DNA of 64,000 bases from Calothrix sp. NIES-4101 (GTDB lineage Bacteria; Cyanobacteriota; Cyanobacteriia; Cyanobacteriales; Nostocaceae). How positions within the stretch are numbered: position 1 is the stretch's first letter; every line of letters starts with the position of its first letter. Shown here one piece after another: positions 43,988 to 46,381 of the stretch. The translations under genes were made by a program, and so were the position numbers. The notes below the pieces were generated by a model that was not told where the DNA came from, searched no databases, and saw nothing but the letters and a program-made list of their open reading frames with translations. The stretch lies in assembly GCA_004296455.1 (NCBI GenBank), contig AP018280.1:2604001-2668000 (forward strand), in the 5' to 3' direction.

Positions 43988-44018
43988 AATCTGCTTGTTA
44001 GGTTTTTCGCATAGTGTG

Positions 44019-44084
44019 AGAAATCGTGTTTCTGGTTTGGTTTTAGAGATTTGAGATTTTGCATAGGAGAGAAACCCGATTTCT
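44019..44084. terminator. Long inverted repeat between convergent menE and the orthocaspase gene
   Basis: Arms AGAAATCGTGTTTCT (44019-44033) and AGAAACCCGATTTCT (44070-44084) pair over 15 bp with one mismatch and a loop of about 36 nt. It lies 31 nt after the menE stop and about 40 nt after the end of the orthocaspase gene. It may terminate both, and it also sits close behind the candidate variable repeat. Confidence 0.55.
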
Positions 44085-44125
44085 GAGATACAGGGTAGAG
44101 GGCAAAAGAGCAAGAGTATAAAGGG

Positions 44126-46381
44126 CTAAGAAGTCCTGGGGAGAACACACACAACCCGAAACCCAAAATTGAAATACCTATTGCCGCGAAAGAGCCTACC
44201 GCGAAACGCAGAACGGCAACCCCCCGGAGCGTAGTTCCAGCAACCGCCACGCAGCATCTTGATCTGATTATCATTATTGTTGCCGTCTAGCCAGGCATTA
44301 CCATTTGTTGGTGCTGAATTATAGTTTTCGTGCCAATCATCTTCACACCATTCCCAGACATTACCATGCATATCGTATAAGCCAAAAGCATTGGGTGGGA
44401 ATGTTCCTACATCAGTAGTTTTTTGGCGACATTCACCTTTGGGAGCAGAGCCATAAGTATAATTGCCATCGTAATTGGCTAATTCAGTTGTAATTGTCTC
44501 ACCAAAGTGGAACGGGGTAGTAGTTTCAGCACGACAGGCATATTCCCATTCGGCTTCGCTGGGCAAACGATAGTTCCGCTTAGGATTCTGTTTTTGGCAA
44601 TGTTGAGATAATCGGGCACAAAACTCACTTGCTTCGTCCCAAGATATAGTCTCAATTGGTAAATTACCACCTTTGAAGTTAGCAGGGTCAGAATTTAAAT
44701 CAATCTTTACCTTGGAGAAAGTAGCTACTGCTGCCCATTGTTTTTGAGTGATGGGATATCTCCCCATAAAAAAGGGCTGGATAGTGACTTTGTGTTGGGG
44801 ACTTTCGTTGTCCCTTCGTTCTGCTTCATTGTTTGGTGAACCCATCATGAATGTACCACCGGGTATTGCTACTATTTCAATTGTTACCCCGTTGCCCAAG
44901 TCTTCAGTAAAATATTCAGCTTTTGCTTGGTGACGGCTAATTTTAGGAATAGATTTTTTGCCAAAGCCTAAAAATCCTTGAGAACGCTCTTCAAAACCAG
45001 TTAAGGTTGCATACTGAAACTCAAATTGTTGAGTGTGAATAACTGAGGAAGATTGTTTGCGTAATTCTTCTTGTTTTAATCTTTCAGCTTCTTGTTCTTT
45101 CTTGCGTAATTCTTCTTGTCTTAATCTTTCAGCTTCTTGTTTTTTCTTGCGTAATTCTTCTTGTCTTAATCTTTCAGCTTCTCTTTCCTGTTCTTGCTGT
45201 ACTAACAATGCTTCCAGATATTGCTTCTCTAATTCTTCCTGCCTTAATTTCTCTGCTTCTTCTCGTTGCTTTTGTATTTGTTCGTATTCTGCTTGTTTGG
45301 GAGCGATTATTCTCTCTTCAATTTCTTGTAAATCTTCATCACGAAGTTTCAAAATATTCTGCAAGCGCTTCAATCGATTAACATTTTTGGCGCTGAGGGG
45401 ATATTCATACTGGACAACCTGTGATAAAGCTTGTTCGTAACGCTGTAATTTTTCCTGGCGCTGTCGATATGGTTCTAAAACCTCATTTTCAATTGCTGCT
45501 GCTTCCTCAACTGACAATCCCCAATTACTTCTTTGTTCATCTAAAATAATGCGACCAAGAATTGAAATTTCGCCATTATCCTCAAGGGCAATTCTTTCCA
45601 CTTCCTTACGATATTTTAATTTGGGGTCATTTTTAGGTGACTTTGCCAGCAAAATTTTATGCCCTTCCTCCACGGGATAAAATTTCGGAGTCATTGCTGG
45701 TGATGCTTCTTGAACCTTGGCGCTAGCATACTCATGTAACTCATCTACCGATATCCATCCATCCCCATCTTTATCCGCCGCACCTTTTTCTATCCCTTCA
45801 ACAATGTAGCGAGTGTAAACCGAAAGTTCCGAACCTTCCTGCTCAAAGGAATATTGTGTTGATGTGGAGGAGGTGAGAATTGCCCTACCTTTACCACCAA
45901 GTTGCTGCTGAATATCCACAGAACCATCATCTTTCACAGTCATCCCTTGCGCGATTGCACCACTAAAGCAACAATCTAAAATAATTACTTGACGTTGCGA
46001 TCGGCTGTCATTAATATTTCCGTGGAGAAAATTGGCTTCAATGCTGGAAGATTTGACTAATCCGCTTTTTTCTTTACGGGTTGCACTGGTTGATAAATAA
46101 AATCTACCAGAATCAAAGTCTTTGATACCATGCCCGGAAAAGTAAAATAGCAATAGGTCATCTTTTTGACGACCTGCAAATAACTTTTCGATCGCTTCCC
46201 GCATTACTTGGGGTTGGGGATTTTTTAGCACTGTGATGTTGTCAGCAAAACCACCCATTTCTAGGTTTGCCAAGACTCGCTCCATGGCATCAACATCATT
46301 AACTGCCGCAGGTAATGGATTTAGTCCCGGTTCATATTCGCTGACTCCGATTAATAGTGCTATTTTCTTCCCCATTGACAA
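44126..46381 (-). CDS. Orthocaspase with coiled-coil repeats and C-terminal FGE-sulfatase (CLec-fold) domain
   Basis: A 751-residue multidomain protein. Residues 1-245 form a peptidase C14 (caspase/metacaspase) domain with His84 in FYFSGHG and Cys138 in ILDCCFSG, the catalytic pair. An EF-hand-like loop, DKDGDGWISVDE (203-214), follows with all calcium positions filled. Residues 260-450 are charged and helical, ending in three 15-residue repeats (QEAERLRQEELRKK type). Residues about 500-751 are an FGE-sulfatase/SUMF1-type domain (AIPGGTFMMGSP, RLPSEAEWEYACR, DMHGNVWEWCED). The last 32 or so residues have the RGG.W...CRSA.R...GFR frame used for hypervariable binding surfaces (see the repeat entry at 44147-44242). 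Orthocaspases cleave after basic residues and are linked to stress or cell-death responses. The target and regulation here are unknown. Confidence 0.9.
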   Translation of the reverse strand: MSMGKKIALLIGVSEYEPGLNPLPAAVNDVDAMERVLANLEMGGFADNITVLKNPQPQVMREAIEKLFAGRQKDDLLLFYFSGHGIKDFDSGRFYLSTSATRKEKSGLVKSSSIEANFLHGNINDSRSQRQVIILDCCFSGAIAQGMTVKDDGSVDIQQQLGGKGRAILTSSTSTQYSFEQEGSELSVYTRYIVEGIEKGAADKDGDGWISVDELHEYASAKVQEASPAMTPKFYPVEEGHKILLAKSPKNDPKLKYRKEVERIALEDNGEISILGRIILDEQRSNWGLSVEEAAAIENEVLEPYRQRQEKLQRYEQALSQVVQYEYPLSAKNVNRLKRLQNILKLRDEDLQEIEERIIAPKQAEYEQIQKQREEAEKLRQEELEKQYLEALLVQQEQEREAERLRQEELRKKKQEAERLRQEELRKKEQEAERLKQEELRKQSSSVIHTQQFEFQYATLTGFEERSQGFLGFGKKSIPKISRHQAKAEYFTEDLGNGVTIEIVAIPGGTFMMGSPNNEAERRDNESPQHKVTIQPFFMGRYPITQKQWAAVATFSKVKIDLNSDPANFKGGNLPIETISWDEASEFCARLSQHCQKQNPKRNYRLPSEAEWEYACRAETTTPFHFGETITTELANYDGNYTYGSAPKGECRQKTTDVGTFPPNAFGLYDMHGNVWEWCEDDWHENYNSAPTNGNAWLDGNNNDNQIKMLRGGCWNYAPGGCRSAFRGRLFRGNRYFNFGFRVVCVLPRTS
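44147..44242 (-). repeat. Candidate variable repeat (VR) of a diversity-generating retroelement target
   Basis: Codons 714-745 of the orthocaspase-FGE gene. Within an invariant frame (W, P, CRSA, R, R, GNR, GFRVVC) the variable positions are N, Y, A, G, G, F, G, L, F, Y, F, N and F. Nearly all of these codons end in C or T, as expected if AAY codons of a template were changed only at A. The position, at the very C-terminus of a CLec-fold domain, matches known DGR targets in cyanobacteria. I saw no template repeat or reverse transcriptase in the window, so the assignment is inference. Confidence 0.5.
45060..45194. repeat. 45-bp tandem repeats inside the orthocaspase gene
   Basis: Near-identical units begin at 45060, 45105 and 45150 (GTAATTCTTCTTG...). 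They encode three 15-residue coiled-coil repeats rich in Glu, Arg, Lys and Gln. Confidence 0.8.

Follow-up and report, generated by a model that had tools for sequence, protein, structure and literature searches.

The window analysed here, a stretch of 64,000 nucleotides from contig AP018280.1 of Calothrix sp. NIES-4101, holds a gene that joins a predicted protease of the orthocaspase type to a CLec/FGE domain, and it raises the question of whether the last codons of this gene were rewritten by a retroelement of the DGR type and whether they are still being rewritten. The first-pass annotation had proposed that the gene is a remote target of a DGR located elsewhere in the genome. As seen below, it is likely to be an orphaned target of a cyanobacterial DGR, now probably one frozen variant.

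Regarding the protein, its caspase-fold domain scores above the Pfam cut-off, by which it is counted among the orthocaspases with the protease as a prediction, and possesses the SGHG and DCCFSG motifs, which we take to be the His/Cys dyad of the caspase domain. The solved relatives of its CLec/FGE end by sequence are PvdO, formylglycine-generating enzymes and the Treponema denticola variable protein 2y3c, and the named relatives of the protein belong mostly to filamentous and colonial cyanobacteria. The gene is flanked by what are presumably menaquinone-pathway-like genes on one side and an lpxB-like gene on the other, within a genome of 7.59 Mb in six contigs, rated 100% complete. The first-pass annotation had also pointed to FGE-sulfatase targets fused to signalling or protease domains in cyanobacteria, and the orthocaspase architecture is in print for cyanobacterial targets in the accessible part of PMC7517822. 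The coordinates of the features are collected in Table 1.

Table 1. Features of the window gene and its 3' flank, template-RNA fossils of the same genome (G000) and cassettes of relatives; coordinates without a prefix are window positions.
Feature	Location	Strand	Details
Orthocaspase + CLec/FGE gene	44126..46381	-	open frame of 751 aa from TTG, 749 from first ATG at 46375
Peptidase_C14 (caspase) domain	45701..46369	-	residues 5-227; Pfam 79.9 bits, cut-off 21.4
FGE-sulfatase/CLec domain	44150..44878	-	residues 502-744; Pfam 189.3 bits, cut-off 23.3
DGR-type variable repeat (VR)	44150..44251	-	34 codons RGG...GFRVV; frame length as in the template repeats (TRs) of 22 relatives
Start of pyrimidine tract after the stop	44092..44125	-	first 34 nt identical to those of the G098 target; G011 homology stops at 44092
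Dispersed ~67-bp repeat of two 15-bp palindromes	44018..44085		palindromes 44019-44033 and 44070-44084; sits where other targets often have the GC hairpin
Template-RNA fossil	G000:C1:7227936-7228098 (L102)		128.6 bits; no recognisable TR upstream
Template-RNA fossil	G000:C1:1410610-1410769		begins at 3' end of paralogous orthocaspase-FGE gene C1:1410760-1412619 (L088:6760-8619)
Target-TR-RNA cassettes without intervening avd/RT	L103 (G011), L104 (G002:C37), L105 (G008), L229 (G092), L232 (G104), L224 (G036), L228 (G136), L236 (G032)

The 3' end of the CLec/FGE domain carries a VR framework resembling that of DGR templates. The reverse transcriptase (RT) used as query was taken from the DGR-bearing plasmid of Fischerella NIES-4106, which is named in the available portion of PMC7517822, and it retrieved the loci of 30 relatives (31 loci in total, L057-L087). 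A script working with a peptide pattern extracted asparagine-rich TRs from 27 of these loci, along with the ends of target genes, and the 22 TRs that share the frame length of the window VR entered the comparison. Against their consensus, the window VR agrees at 10 TR adenines and differs at 20, with 58 agreements and 14 differences at the other positions; the Fisher test of this contrast is partly circular and weakened as evidence, because TR adenines are by construction where the variable codons lie, and synonymous choices were therefore tested against the TRs as well. When the amino acids were fixed and the codons drawn from the gene's own usage in 20000 runs, the 22 third-base matches found between the VR and the TR consensus were reached by no simulation (0/20000; mean 10.2), and the best third-base match to any single TR was 23, compared to a simulated 13.7 (P 0.0002). 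Judged by sequence, the VR nucleotides match the TRs of relatives far more than the amino acids require. Even so, a cognate TR, mismatched at adenines only, was not found among the TRs of these relatives, the best single one agreeing at 61/75 non-A positions, compared to 75-77/77 in most cognate VR-TR pairs.

The intervening codons, listed by the first-pass annotation at 44147..44242 and present there, had been noted as almost all ending in C or T. The count itself is true, covering 11/11 AAY columns, but it departs only moderately from chance when the amino acids are fixed (P = 0.028) and is weaker than it appears, because Asn, Tyr and Phe codons can end only in C or T; the rate of C/T-ending codons is 0.47 body-wide and 0.58 in FGE residues 495-712. 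The bare count was thus rejected as strong evidence.

Ordinary divergence is expected at codon position 3 first, and the orthologue in genome G011, 74% and 73% identical to the window gene in its two segments, departs from this pattern. Within the VR, codon positions 1 and 2 agree at 32/54 places, compared to 387/428 over the remainder of the FGE domain (p 3.7e-8), and codon position 3 agrees at 16/27 and 129/214, respectively (p 1). The divergence of the VR between orthologues is then confined to the first two codon positions, as in DGR targets, and clearly so for G011. This codon-position effect is found at p < 0.05 in six of the eight genes compared (G011, G013, L129, L130, L135 and L131) and not in the remaining two, G098 (0.17) and L132 (0.11), L141 being left out as it has no usable frame. 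In addition, the VRs of the window gene and of G011 have different length frames, CRSA being separated from GFR by 14 and 17 residues, as if two template types had been copied. The view that the gene ends in a DGR-type VR is borne out by the third-base identity to TRs together with this signature. An ordinary FGE/CLec loop under diversifying selection, never touched by a DGR, would suit the modest C/T-ending count, as well as the CLec/FGE fold, in which the variable columns form a ligand-facing loop; it is nonetheless highly improbable given the third-base identity, the collapse of positions 1 and 2 without position 3 and the target-specific pyrimidine tract described below.

As for the machinery, the RVT_1 profile gave 12 matches in the own genome, and all those with inspected motifs are of the QG..SP (group II intron) type, the four without motif inspection being one score twin of an inspected element and three fragments. 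The cyanobacterial DGR RT query gave ten weak matches, nine of them on RVT_1 elements (23-30% identity) and one of 23 residues with an E of 0.89, so neither search found a DGR-type RT in the six-contig assembly. Avd had no match in this genome at E <= 1; elsewhere, it is absent from G011 and G013, present in the same-genus G002 and represented by one doubtful match in the same-genus G001 (E 0.09). Among the matches listed, two DGR RTs are found in G002 (75% and 66% identity) and none in G001. When the VR was searched by BLAST against the own genome, it returned itself, short pieces in two paralogues and stray short pieces, with no fetched piece reaching a template, and the ungapped placement of the VR on the fetched loci gave at most 52/100 bases outside the gene itself. 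Together with the template-RNA model presented below, these searches found no template for the window VR. The genome search proposed by the first-pass annotation, for a DGR RT and a template matching the VR except at A, thus found neither, and the claim of a live DGR fails because of this absence, the very outcome that the annotation had set against itself; a live DGR in the assembly was rejected, with RT, Avd and template all not found, and the claim of a historical DGR target survives.

Among the RT genes of this genome, L001-L005 are five of the group II intron type with 620-aa frames and identical RVT_1 scores, which points to introns having spread in the genome.

The 3' flank of the gene adds another type of evidence. 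DGR target genes have a pyrimidine tract of ~50 nt right after the stop, and in many cases a GC-rich hairpin and A/T-rich DNA come next. Taken as a best 45-nt segment with at least 80% C/T, the tract is seen in 19/21 DGR-locus targets, 22/25 other relatives and 3/7 VR genes of the own genome, and no TR flank (0/27) is above 53% C/T, so that the tract is common to DGR-locus targets and absent from TR flanks. As a background, 6/88 ORF ends pass the same cut, in a null set that itself includes target genes, which make up five of those six. The window gene's own tract reaches 0.76, under the 0.8 cut, because only its start remains. A 24-base tract pattern, with up to three mismatches, occurs at two places in the 7.59 Mb, both directly after the stops of VR genes. 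A literature search, which included the accessible parts of PMC7517822 and PMC3240598 and had most subscription papers out of its reach, found no prior description of this tract.

The GC hairpin is common after targets, not universal: a perfect one, by the script rule, follows 13/21 DGR-locus targets, 10/25 other relatives, 0/7 own-genome genes and 2/88 background ends, and where it is trailed by T-runs it may be a terminator. The first-pass annotation had pointed to a 15-bp inverted repeat past the stop of the window gene, roughly at the place where some DGR targets have a hairpin. The repeat does exist (44070-44084), but it is one arm of the dispersed ~67-bp repeat, and as a DGR-specific hairpin it was rejected, since the motif, at up to one mismatch, is found at 32 genome places, compared to 1 for a reversed-pattern control. 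This dispersed element is presumably REPIN-like. Its palindromes lie ~51 bp apart, and further pairs occur at G000:C1:85136, 320870, 1660166, 3007931 and 7136822.

Besides the tract of the targets, the templates carry a mark of their own, a conserved, covarying RNA domain of ~160 nt downstream of cyanobacterial DGR TRs (3' flanks of L057-L086). In an alignment of 26 template 3' flanks, from which L064 was left out for its insertion, the structure comprises 42 pairs with 96.9% of cells paired, and all five measures lie above all 500 shuffles; the slid controls, which pair 29-47%, weigh more here than the shuffles, because sequences that are related may score above shuffled ones. No family for this domain emerged when three template loci were scanned with Rfam, which gave only one CRISPR-repeat match below the gathering score. 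The covariance model built from the domain finds two places in the own genome, both listed in Table 1 as fossils.

The second of these fossils belongs to a paralogue of the window gene, an orthocaspase-FGE protein of 619 aa encoded after a Pepco adaptor gene (Pfam), whose VR runs straight into the 3' domain of the template RNA. This VR differs from the TR of the same-genus G002:C37 at 19/29 adenines and 5/73 other positions. The locus of NIES-4106 has the order target, target, Avd-position gene, RT and TR, and therefore a recombination between VR and TR would delete the accessory gene and the RT, leaving a VR-RNA fusion of this kind; the fusion in the paralogue is likely the scar of such an event, with avd and RT deleted. 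Of the 26 RNA sites examined, those of G061, G111 and G108 show similar fusions.

The same two parts were surveyed in 149 genomes. A near full-length RT of the DGR clade (at least 308/352 residues) is found in 32 of them and a strong template-RNA hit (at least 100 bits) in 49, the filters of the RNA scan being strict, so that weak hits are lost. Both parts occur in 30 genomes, six RNA-positive genomes have RT fragments only, and 13/49 have neither DGR RT nor fragment among the matches listed, although two of these 13 (G062 and G073) keep a short C-terminal remnant of the RT and several are drafts. Scoring of VRs against TRs at 26 chosen RNA sites gave ten scorable pairs, with 8 to 15 adenine mismatches and 0, 0, 0, 0, 0, 0, 1, 2, 2 and 6 non-A mismatches. 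Three of these pairs are in genomes with a full-length RT (G032, G044 and G002) and seven in genomes without a full-length DGR RT (G011, G092, G104, G036, G136, G008 and G034), four of which have RT fragments, are many-contig drafts, or both. The non-A matches and mismatches are 76/1 for G011, 76/0 for G092, 75/2 for G104, 77/0 for G136, 75/2 for G036 and 75/6 for G008, G036 and G136 being incomplete drafts. Six genomes were searched by the RVT_1 profile; the assembly of G011 gave no match at E <= 0.01, and in the remaining five the inspected motifs (10/16 loci) are all QG..SP.

In the cassettes listed in Table 1, the target is followed by the TR and template RNA ~310-540 bp on, from VR start to TR start, with no avd or RT between them and with VR-TR mismatches almost only at adenines. 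Where the genome has no full-length DGR RT, such cassettes may reflect recent RT loss, missing plasmids, incomplete drafts or supply in trans. A more speculative idea, rather doubtful at present, is that cyanobacteria harbour non-autonomous "satellite" DGR cassettes, made of a VR gene, the tract and an intact TR/RNA without avd or RT, which would be serviced by an RT in trans or transiently resident and would decay through VR x TR recombination into RNA-fused frozen sensors, as in C1:1410760, orphaning remote targets like the window gene.

These cassettes bear on the window gene itself, as adenine-only mismatches in several relatives without an RT make a supply in trans, or an overlooked RT, conceivable in the group, and plasmid-borne cyanobacterial DGRs do exist. 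An RT and a template on an unassembled plasmid, or acting in trans, might then still rewrite its segment. This is improbable, as the assembly is rated complete in its six contigs and lacks a detected DGR RT or Avd, no template was found for the window VR, the 3' element is interrupted and the framework of the VR has diverged from all the TRs compared.

In the preferred reading, that of an orphaned target, mutagenic retrohoming from an AAY-rich TR would have rewritten the last ~34 codons of the sensor in an ancestor, as suggested by the nucleotide homology to TRs and the codon-position signature. The RT, Avd and cognate template would have been lost afterwards; they were not found in the assembly, from which a plasmid could be absent, and the GC block that often comes after the tract has been replaced by the dispersed repeat. 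The avd and RT genes may have been deleted through recombination between VR and TR, the VR-RNA fusion of the paralogue being the expected scar. Because the DGR parts were not found and the 3' GC block was replaced, the binding surface is now most likely one frozen variant, presumably immutable at present, and the segment that the first-pass annotation had considered a tunable ligand-binding end, for which no DGR RT, Avd or template was found, now looks frozen. From the architecture of the protein, the protease would be gated or directed by what the CLec end binds.

It is also possible, albeit unlikely, that the rewriting and freezing of the segment took place elsewhere and that the gene arrived already retired by horizontal transfer. 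Its best orthologue is in another genus (G011), with other neighbours, and in the same-genus G001 and G002 only the FGE part is covered among the matches listed. Moreover, TRs from other genera (L076 and L074) are a better fit to the VR than is the TR family of the RNA-fused own paralogue. However, such a history differs from that of a target orphaned in its own lineage only in the place and time of the DGR, and the odds of the two overlap.

If the gene is an orphaned target, it illustrates the final stage of such a target, a protease sensor that was formerly tunable and outlived its mutator. The pyrimidine tract after the stop, which is specific to targets, and the covarying template-RNA domain, which outlasts the RT, are handles for the recognition of such orphans; with them, it becomes possible to count how often the DGRs of filamentous cyanobacteria are lost, supplied in trans or retired. 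In addition, the VR-RNA fusion suggests a simple recombination route for the self-deletion of DGRs.

Variable proteins of cyanobacterial DGRs with an orthocaspase N-terminus and a CLec C-terminus, including remote targets, are described in the accessible part of PMC7517822, as is the remnant target all3226 of Nostoc PCC 7120, and a 2025 study reported variation specific to adenines within a Nostoc culture (PMC12691664, available in part). The window gene resembles the targets presented in the seen portion of PMC7517822 in its domains, in the position of the VR at the very 3' end of the CLec domain and in lying away from any RT. Unlike the genomes treated there, where DGRs are still present, the assembly of its genome has no detected DGR RT or Avd, and its 3' element is interrupted by the dispersed repeat. 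It is also similar to published CLec/FGE sensors tied to proteases and adaptor domains, for which the consulted part of the literature considers diversification in trans; in contrast to those adaptor-linked sensors, it has no adjoining adaptor gene, whereas its paralogue C1:1410760 lies after the Pepco gene. As in the target of the Bordetella phage BPP-1 DGR with its downstream hairpin/cruciform, described in the accessible part of PMC3240598, the target includes a cis element immediately beyond the VR. Unlike in BPP-1, as far as that part of PMC3240598 describes it, the cyanobacterial targets have the ~50-nt pyrimidine tract first and the GC hairpin, if any, 50-65 nt past the stop, the window gene having lost the hairpin part. 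Orthocaspase-CLec targets and a remnant target are thus already known from the accessible part of PMC7517822, and the window gene adds to them a case of the retired state.
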